Part shown: in pieces, positions 2,314 to 63,040 of the stretch | How positions within the stretch are numbered: position 1 is the first letter of the stretch | Layout: every line of letters begins with the position of its first letter | Notes under the pieces: generated by a model | Told to the model about the DNA's origin: nothing | What the model saw: only the letters and a program-made list of their open reading frames with translations | Databases searched by the model: none | Assembly (NCBI GenBank): GCA_027452025.1 | Contig: DAIDHI010000065.1 | Span: 1 to 64,000, forward strand | Reading direction: 5' to 3' | Length of the DNA: 64,000 bases | DNA from: Elusimicrobiota bacterium | Lineage (GTDB): Bacteria > Elusimicrobiota > Elusimicrobia > UBA1565 > UBA9628 | Position numbers and translations under genes: made by a program

Positions 2314-2319
2314 TATAAT
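2314..2319 (+). promoter_or_regulatory. TATAAT -10 box 6 nt before start (leaderless)
   Basis: A perfect TATAAT, with TG one base upstream of it (extended -10), lies 6 nt before the ATG at 2326. There is no ribosome binding site between them, so the transcript probably starts at or next to the ATG. Confidence 0.7.
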
Positions 2320-2325
2320 CGCGGC

Positions 2326-3462
2326 ATGCGCCTCTCTTACGACGACTTGGTTCGGCAGTATCTGGAGACCCTCAACGCGAAGCTGCGCAATTTCGCCGTC
2401 GAGCCGGAGTTCGTCGCTACTTGGGTGCATGACGAAGACGATCACCGCAGCCTCTACGACCTTTTCGTCGCCGCCCAGGGCGGCGGCTGCCGCGACCTGA
2501 CCGTCGTGGTCGGCGCCGAGCGGGCGGCGCGGCTGGACGCGGCTCGTCTCGATAAGGAGTTGGGCGTGCTGGGAGCGCCGAAGATCGCGCGCGGCCCGGA
2601 CGGAACGCTCGAAGTGGCCGTCGCGCTCAAGGACAAGGTGGACTTCGTGCCCGGCCGGGAGGTCGCGGCCGCGACGCGCAAGAGCCAGGCCTCTGGCGGC
2701 GTCCGCGCGTTCAAGCGCCGCGAGGTCCCCGCAGGCGAGATCGACCCCTCCTATCGAGCCGGGATCGAGTCGCGCAAGATCCGCTTCGAGGGCGCCTTGA
2801 TGGACGCGACGGTCTCGGTATCGGACGGCGGCGCGACGCTCTGCGTCGTGCTGGGCGAGGGCGGCGTCGTGGCGAAGGCGAGGCACTCGGGCGCCGCGGG
2901 TGCGCTGCGCGCGCTGCTCGACGTCCTCTGCGAGGTCATGGAAGGCCGCCCGCTGCAGGAGGCCGCCGATCACGCCGTCATCCGGATGGAGGCGTCGCTG
3001 CGGGACCGCTCCGTGCCCGCGCCCGTCGAAGGGCTGCTGACGCCGCGCACGGCGGGAAGCCTCTTCGAGGCGCCCGAGCGGCTCGTGCGGGTCCTCTACC
3101 GGGAGCGCGTCGCCAAGACGGGCGAAAAGGCCGGCTGGAACTACTGGGACGACGCCGCGGCCGAGGCCTGGGGCGCGCTGCCGGAGGCCCGGAAGCTCGA
3201 GAAGGCCAAAGCGGCCGTCGCCGAGGCCGCCCGCGCGCTGGGCCTGCCGCCCGAGGGCATCGAGGTCGTGGAGGTCATGGGCGGCGTGCGCGTCGTTCTC
3301 GCGCACACGACGGTCACGGCGCAGACCGCCTTCGGCGCGTCGATGATGAGGATCGAGGGACTGGTCAAGAAGGCGCTCGATGCGCGCATCGAGCTGCAAC
3401 TCGAGAGTCTGGAAGACAGGAACCGCCGCGCGCAGCGAACGGCGCGCACCGGCAAGGTCTAG
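2326..3462 (+). CDS. Hypothetical protein, 378 aa
   Basis: I do not recognise the family. The protein is soluble in appearance, with no signal peptide or membrane segment, and is rich in Ala, Arg and Glu. It has an N-terminal segment rich in aromatic and acidic residues (YDDLVRQYLETL, WVHDEDDH), a central region with beta-strand-like stretches (LCVVLGEGGVV) and a basic C-terminus. It is a single gene, divergent from the collagen-like gene and convergent with the radical SAM gene 3 nt away. The ATG is chosen because a TATAAT box sits 6 nt upstream. Codon use matches the neighbours, so it is likely a real gene. Confidence 0.75.
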   Translation: MRLSYDDLVRQYLETLNAKLRNFAVEPEFVATWVHDEDDHRSLYDLFVAAQGGGCRDLTVVVGAERAARLDAARLDKELGVLGAPKIARGPDGTLEVAVALKDKVDFVPGREVAAATRKSQASGGVRAFKRREVPAGEIDPSYRAGIESRKIRFEGALMDATVSVSDGGATLCVVLGEGGVVAKARHSGAAGALRALLDVLCEVMEGRPLQEAADHAVIRMEASLRDRSVPAPVEGLLTPRTAGSLFEAPERLVRVLYRERVAKTGEKAGWNYWDDAAAEAWGALPEARKLEKAKAAVAEAARALGLPPEGIEVVEVMGGVRVVLAHTTVTAQTAFGASMMRIEGLVKKALDARIELQLESLEDRNRRAQRTARTGKV

Positions 3463-3465
3463 CCG

Positions 3466-4596: not shown

Positions 4597-4650
4597 ATTA
4601 GGTCTCGAATCAGTTTAACAGAGAGCCGGTCGGTTTGCCAGTCGCATTCC

Positions 4651-5691: not shown

Positions 5692-6665
5692 GCCTTGGCG
5701 CCCTCAAGATCGAGCGAGCCGGGAAACGGGCTTTTCTTGGCGAACGCCACGGCGGCTTCGACCTTTTCCAAGATTCCCTCGCGGATGAGCCGGCGCTGCT
5801 CCTTGGGCAGCGCCCCGGCGGCGTCGAGTCCGGCCTCGAAGCGCTTGATCGGGTCGGCGGCCATCCAGCGGCGCACTTCGGCTTCGCTGCGGTAGCCCAT
5901 GTCCCAGTCGAAGTTCGGCCCCACGTGCTCCCGCCAGCGGTAGGTCGCGCACTCGAGGAAGCTCGGGCCGCGGCCCTGACGGGCTCTGGCAACGGCTTTG
6001 GACGCGGCGTCGTAGACGGCCAGGACGTCGTTGCCGTCGAGAGCCTGGGCGGGGATGCCGGCGGCCTCGGCGCGCCCGGCGATGGGGATGGAGGGCTGGC
6101 GCCGCGAGATCGGAGTGCAGGTGGAGAGGCCGTTGTTCTCGCAGACAAAGACGACGGGCAGGCTCCAGAGCGCGGCCAAGTTCAAGCTTTCCGAGAAGGT
6201 CCCCTCCTCGACGGCGGCGTCCCCGAAGAAGCAGACGGCCACGCCGTCTTGCTTTTGCTGCTTGAAGGCGAAGGCGGAGCCGCAGGCGATCGGAATCGAG
6301 GCCGCGAGCAAGGCCGAGGTGCCCATCAGGCCGGCTTGCGGGTCGACGAGGTGCATCGAGCCCCCGCGGCCCTTCGTGCAGCCCGTGGCCTTGCCGTAGA
6401 GCTCGGCGATCATCTTGTTGAGATCGCCGCCCTTGGCGATGTAGCCGGCGTGGCAGCGGTGCGTCAGAAAGACGGTGTCGTCCTTTCGAAGATTGGCGCA
6501 GACCGCGGCCGGGATCGCTTCCTGGCCGATGGAGAGGTGCGTCGGGCAGCGCATCTCCTGCTCGGGGTAAAGGGCGGCGATCTTCTCCTCCGCCTCGCGG
6601 ATGAGCGTCATCCTGGTAAAGAGGTCCTTGAGCAGGGCGGCGGGGCGCCCGGAGCAGTCGATCAC
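5688..6665 (-). CDS. TPP-dependent 2-oxoacid dehydrogenase E1, alpha subunit
   Basis: This is 325 aa when started at GTG 6665, whose GTGA overlaps the stop of the upstream fusion gene. That length is usual for acetoin-type E1 alpha. The family features are RxAEExIAxLY, HLSIGQEAIPA, the GRGGSMH segment and the TPP/Mg motif ending in CENN. The motif reads GDAAVEEGTFSE, with Ala where the consensus GDG has its second Gly. E1 alpha and beta form an alpha2beta2 enzyme that decarboxylates a 2-oxoacid on TPP. Co-translation with a sugar-nucleotide-like fusion suggests a glycan precursor pathway. Confidence 0.88.
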   Translation of the reverse strand: MIDCSGRPAALLKDLFTRMTLIREAEEKIAALYPEQEMRCPTHLSIGQEAIPAAVCANLRKDDTVFLTHRCHAGYIAKGGDLNKMIAELYGKATGCTKGRGGSMHLVDPQAGLMGTSALLAASIPIACGSAFAFKQQKQDGVAVCFFGDAAVEEGTFSESLNLAALWSLPVVFVCENNGLSTCTPISRRQPSIPIAGRAEAAGIPAQALDGNDVLAVYDAASKAVARARQGRGPSFLECATYRWREHVGPNFDWDMGYRSEAEVRRWMAADPIKRFEAGLDAAGALPKEQRRLIREGILEKVEAAVAFAKKSPFPGSLDLEGAKA

Positions 6666-8197
6666 TTGAGCATCGCCGTCAGGAACTTGAACAGCGGCGC
6701 GGCCTCGATGGGCGTGCGGTTGCACACGGTCCCGACCTTCATGGCGCCGGCGGCGTTGCCGACGAAGGCGGTCACGTCGATGGGCAATCCCCCCGCCGCG
6801 CACAGCGAGGCCAAAGACAGATAAGCGTCGCCGGCTCCGACGCGGTCGACGACCTTCGAGGAAAAAACGGGGATCGACGTGAAGCCCTCCTTGCGCGAGT
6901 AGGCCAGCGACCCCTTGTGGCCGCGGGTGACGATCATCTGCTCGGTCCTCAGCTGCTTGGCGACGTCGAGCAGCAGCGTCTCGACGGGTCCGTGGCGATC
7001 GCGCGTGGCCATGCGCAGTTCGGGCTCGTCGATGCAGGCGAGGTGCGCCTTGGGATACTTGGTGATGACGTTGTAGCCGATGTTGGCGCTGTTGGTCTGC
7101 GTGTTGACGCAGAGAAAGCGCGCCTCGTGGCACAGCAGATCGACCGCGCGGGGGCCCAGCATGCCGTGGCCGTAGTCGGTGACGAGGACGAGATCGAACT
7201 TGGGCAGCTCGGCCTCCAGATGGCGCAGCATCGGCGCCTCGACTTCGGCCGGCAGTTCCTTGTCGCTCAAATACGAGACCTCGAACATCTTGGTCAGGAA
7301 GGCGGGATCGACGAAGCGGCGCTTGATGATCGACGAGGCGCCCTTTTGCAGAAAGAACTTGGGCTTGACGTTGGGCTTGAGGCGGCTGCGGATGAAGGCC
7401 TCCCGGGAGTCTTCCTGCCCTAGGCAGGCGACGAGCTGCACCTCGGAGGCGAAGCCCGACAGGTGGTTGGCGGCCGCAAGCGACCCTCCGGCGAAGGCCT
7501 CCGCCTCGATGAAGCGCGTGGAGACGATCGTCTCCTTGGGCGACTTGCCCATGGCCTGGCAGTAGTGGTATTCGTCGACGATCGCCTCTCCGACGACGAG
7601 CACCTTGAGCTTGCGCAGCGACTCGACGCTTCGGATGATGGAATCGGACGAATGCCGCTTGGAAAAGGAGTCGAGGAAGGCGCGCGTATCGGGCGGATAG
7701 ACGCCGAAGTGCTGGTTGAGCAGCTGCGTCGAGCTCAGCATGGGCTCTTCGGTGATGACGAGCTTGGCGCCGACGGACTTGGCGGCTTTTTCCTCCTGCC
7801 TGATGCCGCCCGTGACGTCCTTGTCGTGGTCCTTGTAGTCGTTGCCCTTGACGTAGAAATGGGGCCGGATCTTGCGGATCGCCTCGACGGCCGTGGGCGT
7901 ATCGTTGATCGCCACGTAGTCGACGCAGCCCAGCGCCGCCAGGGACTCGGCGCGCAGCTGCTGGGGGAAGACCGGCCGGCCCGGCCCCTTGTTGACGTAC
8001 TCGTCTCTGGTGATCGTGACGACGAGGACGTCGCCGTGGTGCTTGGCCGCTTGGAGGTGCCTGATGTGGCCGGGATGAAGGAGGTCGAAGACGCCGTGGC
8101 AGTGGACGATCTTGAGCCTTTTTGCGCGCGCCGTCTTGAGGGCCTGCGCGAGCGCGTCGAGGCTCAGGACGCGCGACCGGCTGCCGTTGGAGGCCAT
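6662..8197 (-). CDS. Nucleotidyltransferase-PfkB kinase fusion (HldE-like, reversed order)
   Basis: The 511-residue protein has an N-terminal cytidylyltransferase-like domain (about 28-165; CHGVFDLLHPGH carries the HxGH motif, then VKGNDYKDHD). A C-terminal PfkB/ribokinase-type sugar kinase domain follows (about 190-505; AGGSLAAANHL substrate site, DRVGAGDAYLS catalytic Asp and anion hole). HldE/RfaE of LPS heptose synthesis has the same two activities but with the kinase first; here the order is inverted. It probably phosphorylates a sugar phosphate and activates it as an NDP-sugar. It sits 12 nt downstream of a glycosyltransferase gene and overlaps E1 alpha by 4 nt, so these genes are one operon. 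Confidence 0.87.
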   Translation of the reverse strand: MASNGSRSRVLSLDALAQALKTARAKRLKIVHCHGVFDLLHPGHIRHLQAAKHHGDVLVVTITRDEYVNKGPGRPVFPQQLRAESLAALGCVDYVAINDTPTAVEAIRKIRPHFYVKGNDYKDHDKDVTGGIRQEEKAAKSVGAKLVITEEPMLSSTQLLNQHFGVYPPDTRAFLDSFSKRHSSDSIIRSVESLRKLKVLVVGEAIVDEYHYCQAMGKSPKETIVSTRFIEAEAFAGGSLAAANHLSGFASEVQLVACLGQEDSREAFIRSRLKPNVKPKFFLQKGASSIIKRRFVDPAFLTKMFEVSYLSDKELPAEVEAPMLRHLEAELPKFDLVLVTDYGHGMLGPRAVDLLCHEARFLCVNTQTNSANIGYNVITKYPKAHLACIDEPELRMATRDRHGPVETLLLDVAKQLRTEQMIVTRGHKGSLAYSRKEGFTSIPVFSSKVVDRVGAGDAYLSLASLCAAGGLPIDVTAFVGNAAGAMKVGTVCNRTPIEAAPLFKFLTAMLK

Positions 8198-8209
8198 GTC
8201 AAGGAGAGC

Positions 8210-8943: not shown

Positions 8944-8949
8944 AGTGTA
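8944..8949 (-). promoter_or_regulatory. TACACT -10 box 8 nt before glycosyltransferase start
   Basis: TACACT on the minus strand lies 8 nt upstream of the ATG at 8935 with no Shine-Dalgarno between. This predicts a leaderless or near-leaderless transcript. Confidence 0.5.
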
Positions 8950-17249: not shown

Positions 17250-17255
17250 TAGAAT
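17250..17255 (+). promoter_or_regulatory. TAGAAT -10 box 10 nt before kinase start
   Basis: TAGAAT lies 10 nt before the ATG at 17266. The opposite strand carries TATACT (17236-17231) about 20 nt before the ATG of the divergent gene at 17210, so the 55-bp intergenic space holds both promoters. Confidence 0.5.
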
Positions 17256-25067: not shown

Positions 25068-25073
25068 AGGATA
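25068..25073 (-). promoter_or_regulatory. TATCCT -10 box 7 nt before start 25060
   Basis: The hexamer lies 7 nt before the ATG with no ribosome binding site between them, which also supports starting at the signal-peptide Met. Confidence 0.45.
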
Positions 25074-27822: not shown

Positions 27823-27828
27823 ATTGTA
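27823..27828 (-). promoter_or_regulatory. TACAAT -10 box 11 nt before kinase start
   Basis: The hexamer lies 11 nt before the ATG at 27811. It is at the long end of the short-gap series seen in this window. Confidence 0.4.
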
Positions 27829-30011: not shown

Positions 30012-30040
30012 TTTTAGCATGGGTCGCCCAAAACTGTCAA
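30011..30040 (-). promoter_or_regulatory. groESL sigma70 promoter
   Basis: TTGACA (30040-30035), an 18-nt spacer and TAAAAT (30016-30011) form a near-consensus vegetative promoter. The leader to groES is about 80 nt. The -10 box is shared with the edge of CIRCE 1. Confidence 0.85.
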
Positions 30041-30063
30041 TCAAAATATTCGAGTGCCAACTT

Positions 30064-30090
30064 TAAGCAGTCCGGCGGCGGGAGTGCTAA
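30064..30090 (-). promoter_or_regulatory. CIRCE-like element 2 upstream of promoter
   Basis: TAAGCAGTC (30064-30072, 7 of 9 matches), a 9-nt spacer, and a perfect GAGTGCTAA (30082-30090) form a second CIRCE-like repeat about 24 bp upstream of the -35 box. A further GAGTGCCAA half site lies at 30052-30060 without a good partner. Confidence 0.65.
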
Positions 30091-31841: not shown

Positions 31842-31847
31842 AGGATA
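31842..31847 (-). promoter_or_regulatory. TATCCT -10 box 6 nt before start 31835
   Basis: The hexamer lies 6 nt before the ATG, without a Shine-Dalgarno motif. It marks a new transcription unit after the TPR genes. Confidence 0.5.
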
Positions 31848-41120: not shown

Positions 41121-41126
41121 ATTTTA
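41121..41126 (-). promoter_or_regulatory. TAAAAT -10 box 5 nt before metF GTG
   Basis: The hexamer sits only 5 nt before the GTG, so the transcript would begin at or just inside the start codon if this is the promoter. Confidence 0.55.
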
Positions 41127-41136: not shown

Positions 41137-44094
41137 TCAGCTTTTGCTATTGGCGAAGCGGGCCTGGGCTTCGTCGATGAGCTTCTTGTACTCTTTGACC
41201 AGCGCGGGGTCGTTGTTGAGGTAGCTGGCGATCTTGTACTCGGCCGTCGCGTCGCCGTAGCTGCGCATGTTGGCGAAGGTCGCGGCGCGGTTTCGATAGA
41301 AGCGGTCGGCGCTGGGCTGCAGAGCGATGGCCCGGCTGAAGTCCTCCAAGGCCATCGGATAGTTGCGCAAGGCGAAATAGCCCAGGCCCGCGGCGTTGTA
41401 GGCGTCGGCGCTGCCCGGGGCGAACTTCACCGCGAGCAGGTAATCGTCGAGGGCTTTCGCGAAGTCCTTTTGGAAATAGCGGACGTTGCCCGCCCGGATG
41501 TAGGCTTGGGCGTCGTGCGCATCGAGCTTGAGCGCCTTGTCGCACTCCGCGAGCGCCCCCTTGTAGTCGCCCTTGGCGGTCAGGATGCGCGCCAGGCGCG
41601 TGTGATAGGACGGCTCCTGCGCTTTGAGCTCTATGGCCTTGAGCAGGTCCTGCTGCGCGGCGTCGAGAGCGTCTTGCTCGAGCAGGGCCATGCCCCGGGC
41701 CGCGTAGGCGTCGGCGTTGTTGCCGTCGAGCTCCAGGGCCTTGGTGTACTCGCTGACCGCCTTGTCGTAGCGCTGCGAGTTGTCCATGCTGTCGCCCCGG
41801 ATCATATAGAGGTAGGGCTGATCGGAGTCCTTATCGGTGATCTTGTCGAGGTCGCCGATGGCGTTATAAAAGTCGTCGAGGTCGTCTCGCGCGGGCGCGA
41901 AGCCCGCTCGCGTCGAGTGGGCCGAGGGATCGATCTGCATGGCCTGCAGATAGTCGTTGTGGGCGTCGCGATACTGCCGCGTGGCCGTATGGATGATGGC
42001 CTGCGCCAAAAACGCGTCGGCGCTGCGCACTCCGAGCGCGGAGACGGTGGCGAAGTCGTCGAGCGCTCGGTCCGCCTCGTGGGTCGCGAGGCGGCAGAGG
42101 CCCCGCTGCAGGTAGGCGGGCGCGTAGTAGGCGTCGAGCTCGATGGCCCGGTTGCAGTCGGTCACGGCCCAGGCCGCGTCGTTGTCGAGGCGCCGCGCCT
42201 GGCAAAGATAGGTGAAGGCCTCCTTGGAGTGGCGGTCGAGCTCCGTCGCCTTGGTCAGATCCTGCAGGGCGTAGCGCAGGTTGCCCAAGGCGCCGTACGC
42301 GCGCCCGCGATGGATGAGCGCGGAGACGTTCTGCGGGTCGAGCAGCAGCGCCTGGTCGAGGTCGCGCACGGCCTGCTCGTATTCGTGGGTGCGCAGCCGC
42401 ATGGCGCCGAGCGTGTCGAAGGCCATGCTGTACTTCGGGTCCTTCTCGAGGGCCGTTTGGACGTCCTGCAGCGCCGCCGCGTGGTCTCCGAGCTGGGAGT
42501 AGGCGTCGGCTCTCGCCGCCAGAATCCGCGAGGGCGGCCCTTTGAGCGCGAGAGCCCTATTGAAGGCGTCGAGGGCTCCCGGGAAGTCGCGCGACTTGAG
42601 GCGCAGCATCCCCAGGTTGAAGACGTAGGTGGGGTCCTGCGGACGCAGGTCGATGGCTTTCTGAATATCGGCGAAGGCCTTGTCCAGGTCGTTGAGCGCG
42701 TTGGCGTAGAGGGCTCCGCGCGCGTTGTAGGCCTCGGCGTCTCGCGGGTCGGCGTCCAGGGCCACTTGGAGGTCCTGCAAAGCGAGCTTGGGCTTGCCGA
42801 CGCGCGCGTAATAGTCCGCCCGCGCCACGAGCACGGCCGAGTCGCGGGGCGAGAGCTTGACGGCCTCATTGAGGTCGGCGAAGGCCCGGTCGTCCTGGCC
42901 CAGGCGCAGCTCGAGCGTCCCGCGCGCGGCCCAGGCGTCGGCGCGGGCCGGCGCCTTGGCGACGGCCTCGGAAAGATACGTCAGAGCCCGCTTGTCGTCC
43001 TTGAGGGCCTGCCACGCCCGCGCCGAGCGCAGCAGGGCGTCGACCGCCGGGGCGGCCAGCTCTCCGGGCTTGGACTGTCGGCCGCCGGATAGGTCGTAGG
43101 CCCGGTGGTAGGCCTCCAAGGCCTCGCGCCAGAGCTGGAAGTCGGACAGGCGGTCGCCGATGCGCACGGCAAATCGAGGATCGAGCGCGACAGCGCGCTC
43201 CGCCTTGCGGTAGTCTTCGAGGGCGTCGTCGCGCTTGCCCAGGCGGAGCTCCGCTTCGGCTCGGTTGAAGTAAGGCGCGTAGTCGTAGGCGGCGACGCGC
43301 ACGGCCTCGCTGAAGTCGGAGAAGGCCGCCTCGTCGACGCCCTGCGACAGCCGCAGGGCCGCGCGCCCGAGATAGGCGAATGAGTATTGCGCGTTGACCT
43401 CCAAGGCTTTGTTGTAAGCCTCCAAGGCCCGCTTGGCGTCCCCCTTCTGGGCGAGGACGGCGCCGACCAGGCCGTAGGCCGGATAGAAGCCCTGGTTGAG
43501 GCGCAGCGCGTTGGTCAGATCCGTGATCGCCGCGTCGTAGCGGCCGAACTGATAGAGCGTCTCGGCGCGGTCATAATAGTAGACGGGAAGATGGCAGTCC
43601 GGCCTCTTGAGCAGCTGGTCGAAGTCCTCCAGCGCGTTTTGGAATTGGCCGCGGGCGCGAAAGACCCGGGCCCGGCCCGCCAGAGCCTCGGAGGAGCCCG
43701 CGTCCATGCGCAGGGCCGCGTCGAAAGCGGGAAAAGCCTCCTCGGTGCGGCCGCTCAGCAGCAAGGCGTTGCCGAGCGCGATGAGCTCGGCTTCGCTCGG
43801 CGACGACTTGTCCTCCAGCCGGTCGATCACCCTTTGCGCGTCCTTGCGCATTTCGGGCGCGTCGCCGAGGACGTTCCAAAGCCGGGCGCGCAGCGCCAGG
43901 GCCGTCATCAGCGAGGCGTCGTCGGTGACGGCGTCGGAGACCTCGGCCATGGCGCGCTTGAAGTTGCCCTGAAGATAGAAGTCGGCCGCGCGGTCGTAGG
44001 TTTCCCGGCTCCGGGCTACGTCCCCGGCCATCGGCGGCATGGCGCAGGCTGCGGCTAGCGCGAGCAGGGCGCAGAGTTCGAGGGGTCTTCGCAT
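41137..44094 (-). CDS. Giant TPR lipoprotein, 985 aa
   Basis: The N-terminus MRRPLELCALLALAAACAMPP has a lipobox (LAAAC), so the protein is probably a lipoprotein. Almost all the rest is TPR units, roughly 25, each with the W/L-G-Y-A-F-A-P spacing (for example AYGLVGAVLAQKGDAKRALEAYNKALEVN, ADAYAARGMALLEQDALDAA). It ends with KKLIDEAQARFANSKS. It is a single gene that ends just before metF. A scaffold for an envelope complex is the likeliest role. TATATT lies 6 nt before the ATG. Confidence 0.85.
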   Translation of the reverse strand: MRRPLELCALLALAAACAMPPMAGDVARSRETYDRAADFYLQGNFKRAMAEVSDAVTDDASLMTALALRARLWNVLGDAPEMRKDAQRVIDRLEDKSSPSEAELIALGNALLLSGRTEEAFPAFDAALRMDAGSSEALAGRARVFRARGQFQNALEDFDQLLKRPDCHLPVYYYDRAETLYQFGRYDAAITDLTNALRLNQGFYPAYGLVGAVLAQKGDAKRALEAYNKALEVNAQYSFAYLGRAALRLSQGVDEAAFSDFSEAVRVAAYDYAPYFNRAEAELRLGKRDDALEDYRKAERAVALDPRFAVRIGDRLSDFQLWREALEAYHRAYDLSGGRQSKPGELAAPAVDALLRSARAWQALKDDKRALTYLSEAVAKAPARADAWAARGTLELRLGQDDRAFADLNEAVKLSPRDSAVLVARADYYARVGKPKLALQDLQVALDADPRDAEAYNARGALYANALNDLDKAFADIQKAIDLRPQDPTYVFNLGMLRLKSRDFPGALDAFNRALALKGPPSRILAARADAYSQLGDHAAALQDVQTALEKDPKYSMAFDTLGAMRLRTHEYEQAVRDLDQALLLDPQNVSALIHRGRAYGALGNLRYALQDLTKATELDRHSKEAFTYLCQARRLDNDAAWAVTDCNRAIELDAYYAPAYLQRGLCRLATHEADRALDDFATVSALGVRSADAFLAQAIIHTATRQYRDAHNDYLQAMQIDPSAHSTRAGFAPARDDLDDFYNAIGDLDKITDKDSDQPYLYMIRGDSMDNSQRYDKAVSEYTKALELDGNNADAYAARGMALLEQDALDAAQQDLLKAIELKAQEPSYHTRLARILTAKGDYKGALAECDKALKLDAHDAQAYIRAGNVRYFQKDFAKALDDYLLAVKFAPGSADAYNAAGLGYFALRNYPMALEDFSRAIALQPSADRFYRNRAATFANMRSYGDATAEYKIASYLNNDPALVKEYKKLIDEAQARFANSKS

Positions 44095-44100
44095 CTGCGC

Positions 44101-44106
44101 AATATA
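44101..44106 (-). promoter_or_regulatory. TATATT -10 box 6 nt before giant TPR gene
   Basis: The hexamer precedes the ATG at 44094 by 6 nt. The 92-bp divergent region also holds the promoter of the glycosyltransferase gene. Confidence 0.55.
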
Positions 44107-44171
44107 TAGGAAGGAATTGTTAAATTTTCAAGTCGCGCGGCGCGGCGTGGCGGGCGAGCGCGCAAAATGAC

Positions 44172-44177
44172 TATAAT
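44172..44177 (+). promoter_or_regulatory. TATAAT -10 box 9 nt before glycosyltransferase TTG
   Basis: A perfect TATAAT lies 9 nt before the TTG at 44187, in the same divergent region as the TPR gene promoter. It supports the TTG start. Confidence 0.6.
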
Positions 44178-44186
44178 CCGGTCGCC

Positions 44187-44900
44187 TTGAAGACCCTGGT
44201 CTGCGTCGCCGCCTACAACGAGGGCGTCAAGCTCGAGACGACGCTGTCGCGCTTTCCCAAGGACCGGCCCTACGACGTGTTGATCGTCGACGACGGCTCG
44301 ACCGACGACACGGCCGAGCGCCTCAAGCGCTTCCCCGACATGACCGTCCTGCGCCACGAGCGCAACCTCGGCGTCGGCGCCGCCCAGCGCGACGCCTTCC
44401 GCTACGTGCTCGAGCGCGGCTACGACGTCATCGCGTTCGTCGCGGCCAACAACAAGGACGATCCCGCGCTCATCCCGCGGCTGCTGGCGCCGATCTCCGA
44501 GGAAGGCTGCGATTTCGTGCAGGGCTCGCGCTACCTCGACGGCGGCTCCCACGCCAAGATGCCGCTCTACCGGGTTTTCGGCACCCGCTACGTCCACCCC
44601 TTCTTGTTCTTTCTGGCCAGCGGGCGCTGGGTGTCGGACACGACCAACGGGTTTCGCGCCATCCGCGCAAGCCTTTTGCGCGACCCGCGCATCGACCTCG
44701 AGCAAGCCTGGCTCGACCAATACGAGCTCGAGCCGTATCTGTTCTGCAAGGCGGTGCGCCTCGGCTACCGGGTCAAGGAAGTGCCCGTGACCAAGATCTA
44801 TCCGCCCAAGGCCCTGGGCTACACCAAGATCAAGCCGATCACGGGCTGGTGGAGCATCATGCGGCCCCTGGTGCTGATGGCCTTGCGCTTGAAGGGCTAG
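44187..44900 (+). CDS. Family 2 glycosyltransferase (DPM1-like)
   Basis: The protein is 237 aa from TTG 44187. GT-A motifs are VAAYNEGVKLETTL, LIVDDGSTDDTAERL, FVAANNKDDPALI in the DxD region (NNKDDP replaces the common DADLQDDP), GSRYLDGGS, and TNGFRAIRASLL. It likely moves a sugar from a nucleotide donor to a polyprenyl phosphate or glycan. The predicted sequence has no membrane helix at the C-terminus. Its stop overlaps the convergent aldo/keto reductase stop by 4 nt. Confidence 0.87.
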   Translation: MKTLVCVAAYNEGVKLETTLSRFPKDRPYDVLIVDDGSTDDTAERLKRFPDMTVLRHERNLGVGAAQRDAFRYVLERGYDVIAFVAANNKDDPALIPRLLAPISEEGCDFVQGSRYLDGGSHAKMPLYRVFGTRYVHPFLFFLASGRWVSDTTNGFRAIRASLLRDPRIDLEQAWLDQYELEPYLFCKAVRLGYRVKEVPVTKIYPPKALGYTKIKPITGWWSIMRPLVLMALRLKG

Positions 44901-45914: not shown

Positions 45915-45920
45915 ACTATA
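45915..45920 (-). promoter_or_regulatory. TATAGT -10 box 7 nt before aldo/keto reductase
   Basis: The hexamer lies 7 nt before the ATG at 45907, in the 34-bp gap after the clpS stop. Confidence 0.55.
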
Positions 45921-46236: not shown

Positions 46237-46578
46237 TCACAGCCCGAGCCACTGGAAGACCTTCCATTTCTCGACGGCGTCGAGGCGCCCTTCGCCGTCG
46301 CGCTTGAGGCGGAAGCGCCGCCGCAGCGCCCGAAAGTCGCTGCGAAGCGCCCGCTGCTCGGGGCCCAGCAGCCCCACGCGGTTTTGGCGGAACATGAAGT
46401 CGATGAAGGCCATGGCGTCCGCGATGGCCGGCGCCTGCCCGCCGCTGCGATTTTCCTGGGCATAGGCCAGGAAGAGCGCGCGGTAGCGGGTGCCCAGGAA
46501 GCGCACGCTCTTGGGCATAAAGCGCGCCGCTTGCCACAGCCGCTCGACTTGGGCCGACTGCTCCTTGTCCAGCGTCAC
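46237..46578 (-). CDS. Hypothetical protein, clpS operon partner
   Basis: The protein is 113 aa from GTG 46578. It looks soluble and helical, rich in Arg, Phe and Trp (VERLWQAARFMPKSVRFLGTRYRALFLAYAQE, FIDFMFRQNRVGLLGPEQ). It ends with VEKWKVFQWLGL. I recognise no family. It shares an operon with clpS and is preceded by TAACCT with a 6-nt gap. It might be a substrate, partner or unrelated gene. Confidence 0.65.
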   Translation of the reverse strand: MTLDKEQSAQVERLWQAARFMPKSVRFLGTRYRALFLAYAQENRSGGQAPAIADAMAFIDFMFRQNRVGLLGPEQRALRSDFRALRRRFRLKRDGEGRLDAVEKWKVFQWLGL

Positions 46579-46584
46579 GGTGCA

Positions 46585-46590
46585 AGGTTA
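46585..46590 (-). promoter_or_regulatory. TAACCT -10 box 6 nt before clpS operon
   Basis: The hexamer lies 6 nt before the GTG at 46578. It faces away from the dinG-like promoter 37 bp further on. Confidence 0.45.
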
Positions 46591-46627
46591 GCAGTCCGCC
46601 GCCGGAGCGTCAAGGCGGCCGATTGGC

Positions 46628-46633
46628 TATAAT
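46628..46633 (+). promoter_or_regulatory. TATAAT -10 box 8 nt before helicase GTG
   Basis: A perfect TATAAT lies 8 nt before the GTG at 46642. Together with the opposite box it packs two divergent promoters into 63 bp. Confidence 0.6.
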
Positions 46634-46641
46634 CTCAGGCG

Positions 46642-48606
46642 GTGGCCGCGCCTACCGACGTCGATTTGCTGCTCGCCCCAGGGGGCGCGCTCTCGGTCGA
46701 GGACCCGGGGTTCGAGGACCGCCCGGGGCAGCGCGCGATGGCTCGGGCCGTTTCCGAGGCGCTGGAGGGCGGCGGCTGCTTGGTCGCCGAAGCCGGCACG
46801 GGCGTCGGCAAGTCCCTGGCCTACCTTCTGCCGGGAGCTCTCTGGGCCCTGCGTCACGGGCGCCGCCTGCTCGTCTCCACGCACACGCGAGCGCTCCAGG
46901 AGCAGATCGTCGACAAGGACCTCCCTCTGGCCGCCGCCGCCTTGACGCGCCTGGGCCTGACGCTTCGCTTCGCCATGCTCCAGGGCGCCGAGAACTACCT
47001 GTGCGTCCAGCGCTTGGATCGCCTGGCGCGGGACGCTCCGGATCTTTTCGACGGCGCGCCTGCGCTGATCGATCGCCTCGCCCGCTGGGCCAGGACGTCG
47101 GAAACCGGGCACCGGTCGAAGATCCCGGAGCTCGTGCCGCAGGCGCTGTGGTCGCGTCTATGCCGGGATCCCGACCTGTGCCTGGGGCCCAACGGCCGGC
47201 TCTGGTCCTCCTGCCTGTATCGCAAGGACAAGGAGCGCGCCGAGCGAGCCCACGTGCTCGTCGTCAACCACGCGCTGCTGCTCTCGGGAGCGCGCCTGCC
47301 CTCCTACGACGCTTTGGTGGTCGACGAGGCGCATACCTTGGAGGACGCCGCCGCCTCGCATTTCGGCCTCGCCGTCTCCAAGTCCCGCCTCACCCGCTTG
47401 CTGGAGGATGCCCGCCCGCTTTCCCGGCGGCACCCGGAGCTGCTTTCGGCGCTCAAGCGCTGCGGCGAGGACGGAGCCCGGTTCTTCGACGCCGCCGCGC
47501 GCGCGCACGGTCTCGAGACGGGCCGGCGAGAGGAGTCCTCGTCCAGGCTTCTGGAGCCCTCGCTTTTGCCCGAGGAGCCGGCGGCTCTGCGAGAGCTCGA
47601 GGCGCTCTGTCTGCGCCTGATGGAGACCCGGGCGGCGGGCCCGGAGCCCTCCGCCGGCGAGGAAGAGGCGGCCTGGGCCGCGGACCTTCGGCTGCTGCAC
47701 CTGCGCGTGGCGGGCTTTCGAGGCGAGCTGTCTTCCATCGTCAACGGCGTCGACGAGGAGACGGCCCGCTGGATCGAGGCCGGCGCGGGCGTGGAGCTGA
47801 AGGCCTCCCCTCTGGAAGTCGGCGCTCGCCTGGCCGAGACGGTCTTTTCGCGGGGCATTCCGACGATCCTGACTTCGGCCACGCTTTCGGGCGGCGGCAC
47901 CCTCAAGGAGTTTCGCCGCCGCCTGGGCCTGGAGGACGCGCGGGAGCTGGCGGTGGCCTCGCCCTTCGATTACCGCGCGCAGGCGGGCCTGCTGATGCTC
48001 GGCGACGTGCCCGATCCCTCGGATGACCGCCGCTACGCCACGGCCGTGGCGGCGCGCTGCCTGCGCATCGTGCGGGCCGTGCCCGGCGGAGTCTTCATCC
48101 TGTTTTCCAGCTGGCGCAGCCTGCGCGCGGTGCACGCGCGGCTGAGGCGCCGCATCAAGGACCGGCCGCTGTGGGTTCAGGGCGAGGCGGGCAACGACGT
48201 TCTGCTCGAGCAGTTCTCGCGGGCGGGCAACGCCGTCTTGCTCGGAGTCGACACCTTCTGGCAGGGCATCGACGTGCCGGGCGAGGCCCTGTCCTGCGTG
48301 GTCTTGACCAAGCTGCCGTTTCCGAACTTCGCCTCGCCCGTCGAGGAGTCCCGCAGGCGCTGGTTCCAGTCCCTGGGGCGCGACTATTTCCGCGATCACA
48401 GCCTGCCGCGCGCCGTCATGAAGTTCCGGCAGGGCTTCGGCCGCCTCATCCGCACGGCCACCGACCGGGGAGCCGTCGTCGTCCTGGATTCGCGCATCCT
48501 CAAGCGAGGCTACGGCGCGGCGTTTCGCGAAGCGTTGCCGCCTTGCCGGCAGCTCGCCGACCTGGAGGCTCTAGGCGAGTTCTTTCAAGTCGGCCGCCGC
48601 GCCTAG
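46642..48606 (+). CDS. DinG/XPD-type superfamily 2 DNA helicase
   Basis: The protein is 654 aa from GTG 46642. The helicase motifs in order are Walker A (AEAGTGVGKSLAYLLPG), motif Ia (LLVSTHTRALQEQI), four Cys spaced over about 70 residues (NYLCVQR, RLCRDPDLCLG, SSCLYRK) that fit a 4Fe-4S cluster as in DinG/XPD, motif II (VVDEAHTLED), and motifs V and VI (GVDTFWQGIDVPGEAL, FRQGFGRLIRTATDRG). DinG-type enzymes unwind D-loops, R-loops or structured DNA. The last 36 bp overlap the RND gene end convergently. Confidence 0.9.
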   Translation: MAAPTDVDLLLAPGGALSVEDPGFEDRPGQRAMARAVSEALEGGGCLVAEAGTGVGKSLAYLLPGALWALRHGRRLLVSTHTRALQEQIVDKDLPLAAAALTRLGLTLRFAMLQGAENYLCVQRLDRLARDAPDLFDGAPALIDRLARWARTSETGHRSKIPELVPQALWSRLCRDPDLCLGPNGRLWSSCLYRKDKERAERAHVLVVNHALLLSGARLPSYDALVVDEAHTLEDAAASHFGLAVSKSRLTRLLEDARPLSRRHPELLSALKRCGEDGARFFDAAARAHGLETGRREESSSRLLEPSLLPEEPAALRELEALCLRLMETRAAGPEPSAGEEEAAWAADLRLLHLRVAGFRGELSSIVNGVDEETARWIEAGAGVELKASPLEVGARLAETVFSRGIPTILTSATLSGGGTLKEFRRRLGLEDARELAVASPFDYRAQAGLLMLGDVPDPSDDRRYATAVAARCLRIVRAVPGGVFILFSSWRSLRAVHARLRRRIKDRPLWVQGEAGNDVLLEQFSRAGNAVLLGVDTFWQGIDVPGEALSCVVLTKLPFPNFASPVEESRRRWFQSLGRDYFRDHSLPRAVMKFRQGFGRLIRTATDRGAVVVLDSRILKRGYGAAFREALPPCRQLADLEALGEFFQVGRRA

Positions 48607-54702: not shown

Positions 54703-54708
54703 TAGAGT
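54703..54708 (+). promoter_or_regulatory. TAGAGT -10 box 6 nt before hydrolase start
   Basis: The hexamer precedes the ATG at 54715 by 6 nt without a ribosome binding site. Confidence 0.5.
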
Positions 54709-56679: not shown

Positions 56680-56711
56680 CCCGGCGTCCGTGGAGAACGC
56701 CAGCGGCCCGG

Positions 56712-57569
56712 CTAGCGCCGCTTCCAGACGCCGGTGATCGGCGCGGCGCTGGCGTCGTGGAGGCCGAGCGTCCCCAGCCCAAGGCCGTCTTCGACGGTGC
56801 GCAGCAGGCTGTAGTGGTTGTAGAACCGCTTGGAGACCGCGCCGCGGCGGACCATGTCGCCTCGAAGGGCCGTGTAGACCCGATTGGGCCCCCCCCGGTT
56901 GGAGTCTTCGTCGAAGGTAACGGCCAAAAGCGCGCCGTGGGGCCAGCGCGCCAGCAGGGGCCCAAAACGCCTGGCGAACCAGGCGTCGGCGTAGGCCGCG
57001 CTCGTGTCGTGTCCGTCGTCGTCGAGGTTGGGAATATAGAGCGAGAAGTCGGGCAGACGCTCGGCCTTGAGGTCGGCGTCGAGCCGGTCGGCGTTGACGA
57101 GCTTGGCGCAGTCCGCGGGGTTTTGCTGGACGCTGGCAAAGCTCGCCAGAGGATTGTGCCTGCGGACGTAGCGGCCGATGCGCATACTCAGGTCGCAATG
57201 GCCGGGGTAGCCCTCGGCGTAGACTTTCCAGCTCGAGTGTTTGCGGTTCAGCAGAGTGGCGAGGCTGGGCGCGGCGATGTCGACTTTGAAGTCGTCATGG
57301 ACTCCCTGCGTGCCGCCGGACACCAAGGCGACGTAGTTGGGCTGCGACGGGTGCCGGATGGCGTAATAGTCGGCGAGGTAGGCGCCGGAGCTGGCGAATG
57401 AGCGAAAGAAGGGCTGGGCGAGGGCGTCGGAGGCGTCGGTGTTCTCGAACACGACGATCATGACCTTGCGAAAGGGCGGCCGGGCCCGCGCGCGGCGGGC
57501 GTGGGACGCGGCCAAGGCGGGCGCGCAGAGGGCGGCGCTCAGGGCGACGGCGAGCGCTGCGCGGGTCAT
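56712..57569 (-). CDS. Secreted phosphoesterase-family protein (acid phosphatase-like)
   Basis: The 285-residue protein has a signal peptide (AALAVALSAALCAPALAA). It has the alkaline-phosphatase-like phosphoesterase (PF04185-type) pattern: IVVFENTDASDAL, IRHPSQPNYVALVSG, YIPNLDDDGHDT, VTFDEDSN, and NHYSLLRTVEDGLGL. It may be a phospholipase C or acid phosphatase in the periplasm or outside the cell. TAGAAT lies 6 nt before the ATG. Confidence 0.87.
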   Translation of the reverse strand: MTRAALAVALSAALCAPALAASHARRARARPPFRKVMIVVFENTDASDALAQPFFRSFASSGAYLADYYAIRHPSQPNYVALVSGGTQGVHDDFKVDIAAPSLATLLNRKHSSWKVYAEGYPGHCDLSMRIGRYVRRHNPLASFASVQQNPADCAKLVNADRLDADLKAERLPDFSLYIPNLDDDGHDTSAAYADAWFARRFGPLLARWPHGALLAVTFDEDSNRGGPNRVYTALRGDMVRRGAVSKRFYNHYSLLRTVEDGLGLGTLGLHDASAAPITGVWKRR

Positions 57570-57575
57570 GAAGGG

Positions 57576-57581
57576 ATTCTA
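57576..57581 (-). promoter_or_regulatory. TAGAAT -10 box 6 nt before phosphoesterase
   Basis: The hexamer is 6 nt upstream of the ATG at 57569, without a Shine-Dalgarno motif. Confidence 0.55.
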
Positions 57582-57681
57582 GCACACGCGGGAGTCGGGC
57601 GCAGGGCGTGACGACCGGCCGATCTCCGCGCACATTGCCGCGATGTAATGATGAGGTAAGACTTCGGCAACGTGGGTTTTG

Positions 57682-57687
57682 TATAAA
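57682..57687 (+). promoter_or_regulatory. TATAAA -10 box 6 nt before GTG 57694
   Basis: This box overlaps the second codon of a possible earlier TTG start at 57679, so GTG 57694 is the better start. Confidence 0.5.
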
Positions 57688-57693
57688 CTCGGG

Positions 57694-58956
57694 GTGAGGA
57701 TTTGCGCCGCCGTCCTCGCGCTGCTCGTTTCGAGCGTTTTCCCCTCCGGCGCCTCGGCCCAGGCGCTGACGCTGTCTCAGTGCCTGCAGCGGGCGAGCCA
57801 AAAGTCCGTTCAGGCGATCCAGGCGATCATCGCCGAGCGCCGGGCCAAGGCGGCGACGCGAGAGAGCCACGCGCAGCGCCTGCCGCAGTTCTTCTTCTCG
57901 GGACAGCTCCTGCGCTCCGACGATGCCCAGACCAACCTCCCGGACGACAACAACGGGACCTTCGCCGTCGAGCAGCGGCTTTTCCCGTTCAATTCGGGCT
58001 GGGTGCGCGGCCGGCAAGAGGACGCCCTGTATCAGGCGGCGATCCTGGCCAAAGTCGAGTCCGGGCAGGACGTGGAGCTGACCGTCAAACGCCTTTACTT
58101 CTCGATCCTGCAGGGCCAGGACGCCGAGCGCAGCATCGCCGAGGTCGATTCCGAGCTGCGGCGGCTTCTCGAGACGGTGGTGCCCAAATACACGGTCGGG
58201 CGCGCGCCGGCCTTCGACCCGGTCAAGGTCCGGGTGGCCCTGGCCGACTTGGCGCGCGACCGAGGCGGCCTGGAAGCGCGCCTGGCCGAGGAAAGGGAGA
58301 CTTTGGCGCTGATCGTCGGTCTGCCGGACGGCGCGCAGCTCGAACTGGTTCCGCTCTCGACATTTCCCTCCTTGCCGGGTCCCGACTTCGTCGCCCAAGC
58401 GCTCTCGGCCAACGCGACGCTCAAGACACAGGGAAAGAAGGTCGAGGCCGCGCGCCTGGGCATCAAGGCCGCGGAATACCTCCGGCTGCCCGATCTGGTC
58501 GGCCATCTCGACTACAACTACGCCGGCTATTACACCAACGGGATGACGGCCGGCTGGACGGCCGCCGTCGGGATGCAGTTCCCCGTCTTCGACTGGGGCG
58601 TGATCTCGGCCAAGGTCGCGCAGGAGCGCGCGTCCCTCGAGCAGCAAAAGACCCAGCTCGAAGCCGATCGCCAAAAGGTGCTCGACTCCCTGACCGGGGC
58701 GCTGGGACAGGCCAAGGCGCACGAGACCAACCGCAGGAATTATCTCGAGCTCCTGCCCCACGTCCACGAAGTCGCCGTGGCCGGCGTGACGCGCTACCGG
58801 CGGGGCGCCATGGGCATCCTCGAGGCCACCGACGGCGTCAGCCTGTGGCTCAACACGCTGCTGCAAGAGCGCGCGGCCTATTACGGCTACCTCTCCGATC
58901 TGGCGCGTCTGGAGCGGCTTTCGGGCGATAGCCTGAAGGTGGACTATGAGAGGTAG
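57694..58956 (+). CDS. TolC-like outer-membrane efflux protein (second RND system)
   Basis: The protein is 420 aa from GTG 57694. It has a signal peptide (RICAAVLALLVSSVFPSGASAQA) and the outer-membrane factor organisation with two helix-rich halves (LTLSQCLQRASQKSVQAIQAI, FPVFDWGVISAKVAQERASLEQQKTQLEADR). It is the first gene of a second tripartite export operon. Its end overlaps the lipoprotein adaptor gene by 11 nt. Confidence 0.88.
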   Translation: MRICAAVLALLVSSVFPSGASAQALTLSQCLQRASQKSVQAIQAIIAERRAKAATRESHAQRLPQFFFSGQLLRSDDAQTNLPDDNNGTFAVEQRLFPFNSGWVRGRQEDALYQAAILAKVESGQDVELTVKRLYFSILQGQDAERSIAEVDSELRRLLETVVPKYTVGRAPAFDPVKVRVALADLARDRGGLEARLAEERETLALIVGLPDGAQLELVPLSTFPSLPGPDFVAQALSANATLKTQGKKVEAARLGIKAAEYLRLPDLVGHLDYNYAGYYTNGMTAGWTAAVGMQFPVFDWGVISAKVAQERASLEQQKTQLEADRQKVLDSLTGALGQAKAHETNRRNYLELLPHVHEVAVAGVTRYRRGAMGILEATDGVSLWLNTLLQERAAYYGYLSDLARLERLSGDSLKVDYER

Positions 58957-59578: not shown

Positions 59579-59579
59579 C

Positions 59580-62500: not shown

Positions 62501-62639
62501 GGCCGTCGGCTGGGGCACGGGCTCGGAGCTTCAGCGCCCGCTGGCCATCGCCGTGATCGGAGGCATCCTCACCTCGACGATCCTCACCCTGGTCGTCCTG
62601 CCCGCGGCGGCCATGGTGGTCGTCAGGCGCGCCCGATAG
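59580..62639 (+). CDS. RND efflux transporter (second system)
   Basis: The 1019-residue protein has 12 transmembrane helices and two periplasmic loops. Helix 4 has the proton-relay pattern GLAIGTGIIVDDAIIVLENIF, without the D-F-G of the metal-type pump at 48.6 kb. The N-terminus shows LFPPLNFPVLNVIVQEPSFSSLEMERQVTLPIE, and the C-terminal half shows VGIVVRNGIMLLDYMN. The substrate is unknown; drugs, lipids or metals are all possible. It follows the short adaptor gene by 1 nt. Confidence 0.92.
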   Translation: METIESVLTRVLKARGFVAVAAVFLVVLGLWLSRGLKVDLFPPLNFPVLNVIVQEPSFSSLEMERQVTLPIESAASGVLGVTGVKSASGTGIAMISVQFQWGTDMLVARELLTEALSGISGQLPPGADPSIENLSAALAMIEGYAIQGGGDPVALRDQALYDLKPRLQRIPGVYKVLVMGGKVLEYAVYPNPTLLIKYGVTLEDLRSALDANNIATSPGVVNDYSQELVLNPNGQFKDAAEIGETVIAVKDGIPVRLSDVARVTDAYEYERGDTSEMGKPAVLVNVLKQPSYDTGAVAKAVAAEIAKFEKSLPHGYTIRNYYDQAQLVDDSIASVKESVWIGALLVVLVLFAFLRHARTTVIATLSIPLSVLAALVAMRAFGIGINIMSLGGLAIGTGIIVDDAIIVLENIFRWLATPALRQGLSNPQVVARAAAEVAPPVIASTFTNIGIFLPMVLVEGLPGRLFAPVSATVTFALLASLCAALTIIPVMADRWLHGQDLPEEKEGALHRLYERALRPAFRRPKLAVALGLAPMLLAIFVFGRLDSAFLPDLDEGAILVSADMPAGTSLNEAERVDRKLESWLEKVPGVVEVVRRTGHAAGAEDTDNVNHSDIMVKLLPKNRRPLPIQDLINLLGAKTDAMPNVAVSYLMPLADKINDALGGVPADIGVDLYGPDLVRLHELSDRLIAKLQRVRGLVDLRPPTDMPVPSLEIQVDKAAAGRLGVSESQIHDALKAYSSGLTVTGVRQVQKIIGVVLHYTPAGQNLNLEALRSLPLRTAGGNTVPLEQVATFGYGSIPSQINHDHMTRKITITANVRGRNAKDAAADITKAMDSLGLPAGYSWDFSGKFAAQQSAMSNMAEVFVLAIAVVALILWIEFRSFGQVGLVLLTVPLAAVGGVGALWVTGQTLNVSSMIGAVLLVGIVVRNGIMLLDYMNLQLAAGRPLDEAVHAASMKRLRPILMTTVVMVLGLLPLAVGWGTGSELQRPLAIAVIGGILTSTILTLVVLPAAAMVVVRRAR

Positions 62640-62680
62640 GCCTAATCCTCGCTGCTGACGTTCCGAAAGTCCTGAGTCAT

Positions 62681-62700
62681 ATATGCTAATATGAGCATAT
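62681..62700. promoter_or_regulatory. Inverted repeat overlapping promoter and start of ArsR-type gene
   Basis: ATATGCT (62681-62687), a 6-nt spacer and AGCATAT (62694-62700) form a perfect 7-bp inverted repeat. It contains the TAATAT box (62687-62692) and runs into the ATG at 62699. This placement fits an autoregulatory ArsR operator. Confidence 0.75.
62687..62692 (+). promoter_or_regulatory. TAATAT -10 box 6 nt before ArsR-type gene
   Basis: The hexamer is inside the inverted repeat and 6 nt before the ATG at 62699. Confidence 0.55.
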
Positions 62701-63040
62701 GTCCACGTTAGACCGAATGGACACGGTCTTCAAGGTCAAGGCGGACTACCTCTCGGCGCTGGCCAACCCCGCGCGCTTGGCGGTCATCGAGGAGCTCAAG
62801 AGCGGGGAGTCGTCCGTCGGCCGGCTGGTGGAGCGCCTGCGCATCGAGCAGTCCAGCCTCTCCAAGCACCTGGCCATCCTGCGGCGGGCGGGCGTGCTGG
62901 TCTCGCGCCAGCACAAGACGACCGTTTTCTACTCCATCCGGGACCGGAGGATCTTCCAGGTGCTGCGTCCGATCTCGGAGATGCTGCGCAAGCAGATGGA
63001 GGAGAGCCGCGCGATCCTGGCGCGGCTCGGCAGGGCGTAG
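62699..63040 (+). CDS. ArsR/SmtB-type winged-helix regulator without Cys
   Basis: The 113-residue protein has the ArsR winged helix (SALANPARLAVIEEL, VGRLVERLRIEQSSLSKHLAILRRAGVLVSRQHKTTVFYSI). It has no Cys at all, so the usual alpha-3 metal site (ELCVC) is absent. It must sense something else or bind another ligand. It is 3 nt upstream of the DabA-like gene, in the same operon, and probably controls it through the operator at its start. Confidence 0.88.
   Translation: MSTLDRMDTVFKVKADYLSALANPARLAVIEELKSGESSVGRLVERLRIEQSSLSKHLAILRRAGVLVSRQHKTTVFYSIRDRRIFQVLRPISEMLRKQMEESRAILARLGRA

Follow-up and report, generated by a model that had tools for sequence, protein, structure and literature searches.

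The stretch analysed here (the window) comprises 64,000 nucleotides of contig DAIDHI010000065.1 (assembly GCA_027452025.1) from an Elusimicrobiota bacterium. An earlier note on this DNA had pointed to TANNNT hexamers a few nucleotides ahead of start codons and proposed that the mRNAs of the window are mostly leaderless. Here, we report that this −10-like box is enriched at a precise distance from gene starts across a sample of the genome and in other high-GC members of its family. Judged by sequence, leaderless mRNAs are very probably produced in this high-GC Elusimicrobiota family from sigma-70-type promoters whose transcription start (+1) would fall on the start codon (probability about 0.9). 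Leaderless transcription is strongly supported, but 'mostly' overstates it: the estimate is about 40–45% of divergent genes and about one-sixth of all genes.

The host is a high-GC Elusimicrobiota. Among the matches listed (80 loci kept), its GroEL is nearest to those of Elusimicrobiales metagenome-assembled genomes (MAGs; 72–77% identity), and a GroEL tree groups it with Elusimicrobiales MAGs with 100/98 support, inside a same-family clade of 30 genomes, its own counted, in what is a single-gene tree.

−10 boxes ahead of gene starts

The genome containing the window (3.25 Mb, 105 contigs; window GC 68%) was sampled by taking the window together with 20 further stretches, 370 kb in all, in which one stretch of 1.7 kb is all N. 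Gene starts were called by a blind caller based on codon usage only, in which the upstream sequence is never considered, and backgrounds were obtained from dinucleotide-preserving shuffles. Ahead of the 311 blind starts, 64 TANNNT boxes lie at gaps of 5–11 nt, compared with 11.0 ± 2.9 in shuffles; gaps 5, 6, 7, 8, 9, 10 and 11 hold 3, 19, 13, 11, 9, 4 and 5 boxes. A box about 10–12 nt ahead of the start is above background, with a peak at gap 6. In the gap bins 0–4, 12–20, 21–30, 31–45 and 46–60, TANNNT is near expectation. The window by itself has 17 boxes at 57 blind starts (2.1 ± 1.5 expected; maximum 7 in 500 dinucleotide shuffles), and the sample minus the window retains 47 boxes at 254 starts, against 9.8 expected. 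The enrichment for which a genome-wide scan had been proposed, followed here on 370 kb, survives both the dinucleotide shuffle and removal of the window. All 15 genes listed in the earlier note, which had spoken of at least 16, carry the hexamer and gap attributed to them, although TATAAA ahead of 57694 is not a TANNNT box.

The boxes are found mainly at the first genes of transcription units: there are 31 boxes at 72 divergent starts (4.5 expected) and 22 at 72 starts lying more than 25 nt from a co-directional gene (3.6 expected). They are rare at operon-internal genes (11 at 164 starts; 3.1 expected). TANNNT is loose, and a flexible hexamer combined with a wide range of gaps might match ahead of many genes by chance. 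At 68% GC, however, TANNNT is rare, and no such excess occurs in shuffles, at far-upstream positions, in Cupriavidus or in E. coli, which refutes this explanation and leaves it next to no credence.

Promoter identity of the box

A joint model, in which start choice, −10 box, Shine–Dalgarno motif and spacings are fitted together and which gives a leaderless posterior (L), returned the motif T-A-t-A-A/c-T with gap 6 in 38%; the same motif was obtained from a pooled set of seven family genomes (922 kb, 798 genes). At 142 confident sites of the seven genomes, a −35-like TTG stands at spacers of 16, 17 and 18 in 8, 17 and 9 cases and 0–3 times at each other spacer between 13 and 23, and the TG of an extended −10 is present at 45 sites, against 6.5 elsewhere. 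By its sequence context, with a −35 at about 17 and an extended −10, the hexamer is a genuine sigma-70-type promoter element. Sigma-70 transcription starts about 7 nt beyond the −10 box, so at gap 6 the +1 would lie on the start codon.

The groESL operon had been named as the exception with a leader, and it is one. Its predicted leader is about 79 nt long and contains an operator, which we take to be CIRCE from its consensus; upstream of groES (Cpn10 match) the order is TTGACA, TGCTAAAAT and then CIRCE.

30016–30011 (−): groESL −10 box TAAAAT, read from sequence; TGC before it and, 18 nt further, TTGACA at 30040–30035
30011–29985 (−): CIRCE operator, adjoining the −10 box of groESL on its downstream side
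29940–29936 (−): groES Shine–Dalgarno motif GGAGG, with ATG 29925

With CIRCE, a known operator, next to a promoter of this type, there is a possible reason for the groESL leader, and its place by the −10 box supports the promoter reading of the hexamer. Two more sites resembling the left half of CIRCE lie upstream in direct orientation, TTAGCACTC at 30090–30082 and TTGGCACTC at 30060–30052 (−).

These data bear on the proposal that the AT-rich element is no promoter and acts as a translation signal, either a ribosomal protein S1 site or an AT-rich non-Shine–Dalgarno site of the Bacteroidota type. In its favour, Nakagawa 2017 (PMC5397173) regard an AT-rich bias around positions −20 to −10 as not simply due to leaderless promoters and as possibly reflecting S1 binding. 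Nevertheless, a translation site has no need of a precise TAtAAT, a TGn or a −35 TTG at spacer 16–18, and the element stands mostly ahead of divergent genes and seldom ahead of internal ones, which would need such a signal equally. Moreover, in groESL a promoter of the same type lies well upstream of the start codon, with CIRCE directly behind. We consider a translation signal very unlikely and retain the promoter reading.

Start codons at the predicted 5′ ends

In the seven genomes, 211 TGNTANNNT sites allow the position of the codon to be examined free of gene calls. Behind them, ATG occurs at +6/+7 in 25/19 cases, against 2.6 ± 1.6 at +20 to +59, and GTG in 7/4 cases, against 2.2 ± 1.5; TTG at these two positions was not seen (0/0 against 2.4). 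At 215 TTG-N19-21-TANNNT sites, ATG, GTG and TTG are found at +6 in 19, 12 and 2 cases, where 2.7, 2.25 and 2.5 were expected. The 5′-terminal codon would be ATG or GTG and not TTG, as in the mycobacterial rule. The TTG starts that the earlier note had included among the leaderless ones are not supported: TTG shows no enrichment behind such promoters, which makes 44187 doubtful.

A wider promoter-like set of 619 sites has 151 ATG/GTG codons at +6 to +8. With starts called blind, 83 of the 151 are gene starts (background 5.1), 12 and 19 lie in the same ORF (open reading frame) upstream and downstream of the blind start (2.3 and 9.4 expected), and 30 lie in other intergenic ORFs (10.8 expected); inside genes there is no excess, with 2 sense and 5 antisense codons against 3.4 and 10.6. 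Joint-model starts give 102 codons on gene starts against 4.5, and same-ORF counts of 2 and 10 against 2.0 and 10.3. This version is partly circular, as the model rewards the box, and the blind recount of 83 against 5.1 answers that point; a 'share of true −10 boxes' is circular because the boxes are picked by the model.

It could also be that the promoters are real and the start codons miscalled, with translation in fact initiated at a later codon, after a leader that carries a Shine–Dalgarno motif. Five of the 15 listed starts differ from the blind call, TTG 38496 among the listed starts is unsupported, and the same-ORF excess on either side indicates that the blind caller errs both ways. 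Among 16 leaderless starts, four have protein alignments that begin more than 15 residues downstream; eight, on the other hand, have alignments that begin within three residues of the called start, and one begins more than five residues upstream. Since starts blindly called from coding potential already peak at gap 6, ATG/GTG piles up at +6/+7 without any gene calls, and 83 of the 151 codons are blind starts, miscalling is as improbable an account as a translation signal, and +1 on the start codon remains the preferred reading.

Under joint-model starts, 31 intergenic ATG/GTG codons behind promoter-like sites in the family stretches begin uncalled ORFs, against 10.5 expected (among them L224:4769 (−) and L231:7631 (+), numbered from 0 along the oriented strand); 17 of these ORFs have 62–158 aa and one has 257 aa. 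An abundance of small leaderless ORFs as in mycobacteria was considered and set aside, as the sizes suggest that many are probably ordinary genes left uncalled; several of the 62–158 aa ORFs may be missed leaderless genes.

Leaderless share and Shine–Dalgarno use

The share was estimated with fixed parameters and a cut of L > 0.8 for 751 genes of the seven family genomes. Of 180 divergent genes, 50.6% pass this cut, compared with 10.1% in shuffles; the figures are 22.3% (shuffles 4.8%) for the 229 co-directional genes that lie more than 25 nt downstream and 6.7% (1.9%) for the 342 operon-internal genes. After subtraction of the shuffles, leaderless genes would make up about 40–45%, 18% and 5% of these classes, respectively, and about 17% of the 751 genes.

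In our own-genome sample, the Shine–Dalgarno motif is found at 71 of 164 internal genes (31.2 expected) and 20 of 72 co-directional distant genes (11.0 expected), with no clear excess at divergent genes taken all together (8 of 72; 5.8 ± 1.8 expected). The proposal that internal genes start by ATGA/GTGA overlaps is half of the picture. A 4-nt overlap with the upstream gene does occur at 67 internal genes; because 35 of these also carry the motif, internal genes are seen to use both the Shine–Dalgarno motif and stop–start overlap. The 16S rRNA ends in CCTCCTTTCT and so the anti-Shine–Dalgarno is intact. Initiation of the AT-rich, non-Shine–Dalgarno type known from Bacteroidota was rejected: there is no genome-wide loss of the motif, given the internal genes and the intact anti-Shine–Dalgarno. 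Ribosomal protein bS21 is encoded in 75 of 79 phylum genomes, our own among them, and IF3 is encoded as well. The sole own-genome frame with several S1 matches, G000:C8:24491-25141, is an S1 candidate of 410 aa with three matches; E. coli S1, with six domains, is longer.

Predicted leaderless sites in the window

At 14 of the 15 listed sites, the joint model gives L posteriors of 0.81–1.00 and Shine–Dalgarno posteriors of at most 0.10. The exception is TTG 38496 (TAGAAT, gap 9), for which ATG 38445 is preferred. The blind start is the same codon at 10 of the 15 sites and differs at 38496, 44094, 54715, 57694 and 62699. Altogether, 18 of the 57 window genes reach L ≥ 0.8; additions by the joint model are 17266 (+) and 27811 (−) and, more doubtful and operon-internal, 8197 (−) and 55333 (+). 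The predicted boxes are as follows (L posterior last, with remarks).

2314..2319 (+): TATAAT, gap 6, ATG 2326; 1.00; blind start agrees
8944..8949 (−): TACACT, gap 8, ATG 8935, glycosyltransferase family 2; 0.98; 17 nt downstream of a co-directional gene
17250..17255 (+): TAGAAT, gap 10, ATG 17266, histidine kinase; 0.98; absent from the earlier list
25068..25073 (−): TATCCT, gap 7, ATG 25060; 0.94
27823..27828 (−): TACAAT, gap 11, ATG 27811, PAS/HAMP histidine kinase; 0.96; absent from the earlier list
31842..31847 (−): TATCCT, gap 6, ATG 31835; 0.95
41121..41126 (−): TAAAAT, gap 5, GTG 41115, methylenetetrahydrofolate reductase (MTHFR); 0.99
44101..44106 (−): TATATT, gap 6, ATG 44094, TPR protein; 0.81; below 0.8 in the pooled model; blind start differs
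44172..44177 (+): TATAAT, gap 9, TTG 44187, glycosyltransferase; 1.00; start doubtful, TTG showing no enrichment after promoters of this kind
45915..45920 (−): TATAGT, gap 7, ATG 45907, aldo/keto reductase; 0.98
46585..46590 (−): TAACCT, gap 6, GTG 46578; 0.97; back-to-back with 46642 in 63 bp
46628..46633 (+): TATAAT, gap 8, GTG 46642, DinG/YoaA-like helicase (below curated cut-offs); 1.00
54703..54708 (+): TAGAGT, gap 6, ATG 54715, isochorismatase family; 0.82; blind start ATG 54787
57576..57581 (−): TAGAAT, gap 6, ATG 57569, phosphoesterase family; 1.00
57682..57687 (+): TATAAA (not TANNNT), gap 6, GTG 57694, outer membrane efflux protein; 0.98; blind start TTG 57679
62687..62692 (+): TAATAT, gap 6, ATG 62699, ArsR-type regulator; 0.96; blind start ATG 62717

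The divergent pairs 46578–46642, 44094–44187 and 57569–57694 are 63, 92 and 124 bp apart with predicted leaderless promoters on both sides, and at such spacing the paired promoters must interleave or abut. The gene at 6662–8197 (−) encodes an HldE-like fusion, in which a TIGR02199 adenylyltransferase match (residues 21–160) precedes a TIGR02198 kinase match (191–491), both below curated cut-offs. In the usual HldE the kinase domain comes first; the domain order is swapped here.

Relatives and control genomes

The family has 43 other genomes, 9 of which were sampled as stretches, as were 18 genomes from elsewhere in the phylum. A gene caller trained on one relative of 69% GC failed for G082, where GTG was taken for half of the starts, so the codon model of our own genome was applied to the high-GC relatives. 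A freely fitted expectation-maximization (EM) model on small samples returned meaningless 'leaderless' motifs at odd gaps, and for this reason the phylum comparison was based on a fixed matrix with shuffles, together with the gene-call-free test.

Using the fixed matrix and blind starts, matches at gap 5–9 were counted per first genes. Our own genome has 43 in 144 (7.5 expected), and six other high-GC family genomes (G079, G082, G090, G101, G106 and G116) together have 74 in 272 (14.0 expected); singly, the six have 6–18 matches against 1.6–2.6, G106 being marginal (6 against 1.6 ± 1.5). The counts are lower in a 50%-GC genus of the family (g2; G071 and G110; 10 of 69, 3.3 expected), in other class members above 50% GC (13 of 159, 8.1 expected) and below 50% GC (9 of 69, 4.0 expected), and in the rest of the phylum (26 of 312, 16.8 expected). 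As controls, E. coli (1 of 53, 2.4 expected) and Cupriavidus metallidurans (5 of 96, 5.1 expected) are negative, and Deinococcus radiodurans MP1 is positive (9 of 53, 2.3 expected). With the fixed-parameter cut of L > 0.8, divergent genes score at 16.7% of 24 in Deinococcus MP1 (shuffles 0.8%), 12.5% of 24 in g2 (1.7%), 3.6% of 28 in Cupriavidus (5.7%) and 4.5% of 22 in E. coli (1.8%).

The gene-call-free test gave no clear ATG excess at +6/+7 in g2 (1/4 against 1.9) or in the rest of the phylum (19/20 against 27). The relatives are weak rather than empty, since g2 has GTG at +6 behind −35/−10 pairs in 8 cases (1.5 expected) and other class members have ATG at +6 in 6 and 10 cases (2.8 and 4.6 expected); the gap-6 counts of the relatives (e.g. 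6 against 1.6) hint at leaderless genes at a low level throughout. GC content alone was rejected as the cause, Cupriavidus being negative at 65% GC, although within Elusimicrobiota the leaderless share is confounded with GC content.

One family genome, G104, was excluded from the high-GC counts; it had earlier been treated as low-GC and was included as such in the 'g2+g44' pool of the gene-call-free test. The portion of this genome that is high in GC comprises 60 kb with 15 first genes, too small to judge; among gaps 0–20 it has boxes only at gaps 9, 11 and 16. Its contig C29 (L217, L218; 165 kb) has 33% GC, compared with 63–68% for C32, and carries a distant (29%) GroEL-like ORF; this contig is a probable binning contaminant.

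Discussion

The motif, its position, its promoter identity, the codon rule and the spread among sampled relatives have been established above from the DNA. From these we infer where the mRNAs begin and how ribosomes start on them. With +1 at the start codon, an mRNA would have neither a 5′ leader nor a Shine–Dalgarno site, and the ribosome would start directly on the 5′-terminal AUG or GUG. By analogy with mycobacteria and Deinococcus, initiation would proceed via pairing with the initiator tRNA, probably on 70S or tRNA-preloaded 30S ribosomes. Operon-internal genes would be translated by Shine–Dalgarno pairing and stop–start overlap. The leaderless mode would serve roughly 40–45% of divergent genes in the high-GC family and be weak in the other sampled members of the phylum.

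Orthologues were compared in 42 reciprocal pairs with at least 40% identity, of which four are leaderless in both. MTHFR at 41115 and also L086:11788 have kept their start and box in another genus. GTG 41115 has a match in G101 that is also called leaderless, with the alignment starting at both start codons. The G101 match of ATG 44094 is called leaderless too, and the upstream sequences look similar.

Several points weigh against the leaderless reading. The orthologue support is thin, since six of the 42 pairs set a leaderless against a Shine–Dalgarno gene and two a leaderless against an undecided one; such mixed pairs may reflect a state that switches from genus to genus or, for two whose alignments are out of register by hundreds of residues, a lack of orthology. 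The joint model is not free of false calls, since 10% of divergent genes pass L > 0.8 after shuffling; the sampled stretches amount to 11% of the genome; and boxes at gaps 8–11 could leave a leader of a few nucleotides. The positive control Rhodococcus jostii pRHL1 is weak (7 of 81, 3.7 ± 1.8 expected), is not separated from shuffles with fixed parameters (6.7% of 30 divergent genes against 6.0%), and, like Deinococcus, leaves the gene-call-free test low-powered (13 TGNTANNNT sites, and 12 in Deinococcus). Finally, of the 109 blind starts with a box at gap 6–8, 7 are preceded by A and 63 by C; of the 656 without such a box, 116 and 292 are. This is compatible with a pyrimidine ahead of the start as minor support; C is also common (47%) before Shine–Dalgarno genes, and we place little weight on the bias because T is not enriched.

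It is a tentative further proposal, at somewhat below even odds, that a single high-GC family has extended leaderless expression, low in its relatives, to about two-fifths of divergent genes, with ribosomes that accept a 5′ AUG or GUG. If true, the family would be a natural experiment in the shift from Shine–Dalgarno to leaderless initiation with bS21 and an intact anti-Shine–Dalgarno retained. The leaderless reading as such would place Elusimicrobiota among the phyla that use this mode on a large scale. The contrast within the phylum could reveal what accompanies the switch, be it GC content, ribosomal proteins or promoter strength. For these MAGs, gene starts should be called with a model that includes leaderless genes; four of the 15 listed starts are reached only in that way.

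Comparison with known systems

Leaderless genes were reported in 207 of 953 bacterial genomes, mainly of Actinobacteria and Deinococcus–Thermus (Zheng 2011, PMC3160421), and GeneMarkS-2, according to a citation in PMC9581028, is reported to have predicted such genes for 21.6% of bacterial species. The phylum list of Zheng 2011 does not name Elusimicrobia, leaves one genome unclassified and includes several diderm phyla (PMC3160421); Elusimicrobiota appear in a table of anti-Shine–Dalgarno types (PMC10783764).

A close likeness is to Deinococcus–Thermus, where TANNNT lies a few bases ahead of the start in a mixture with Shine–Dalgarno genes (PMC12340547, PMC3160421) and where experiments are reported to show that the adjacent box acts as a promoter (PMC12340547, 2025). 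The leaderless share reported there, about 30% (2025, PMC12340547) or about 40% (2011, PMC3160421) of genes, is higher than in the Elusimicrobiota family, whose box is more informative (TAtAAT, TGn, a detectable −35). Our own genome keeps bS21, which had no match in the Thermus and Deinobacterium controls. In mycobacteria, 5′ ATG and GTG work and TTG and CTG poorly (PMC4633059), a rule that is read here from sequence; about 20% of actinobacterial genes are leaderless (Zheng 2011, PMC3160421), but this is another phylum, and bS21, present here, had no match in the Corynebacterium control. The claim that leaderless use is notable in such a diderm is weakened by the diderm phyla in Zheng 2011 (PMC3160421) and by Caulobacter crescentus, a diderm of 67% GC with an intact anti-Shine–Dalgarno and 375 experimentally mapped leaderless mRNAs (9.6% of coding sequences; PMC4117421). 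In Caulobacter, 75.4% of genes are given as lacking a Shine–Dalgarno motif (PMC4117421), whereas the internal genes of our own genome are clearly enriched for it; the whole-genome leaderless share estimated here is higher than in Caulobacter, but comes from unmapped predictions. The leaderless kind of expression is therefore already established. What is new is its predicted use in this phylum, its apparently lineage-restricted character, with a concentration in a single family of high GC, and a codon rule visible at the sequence level.

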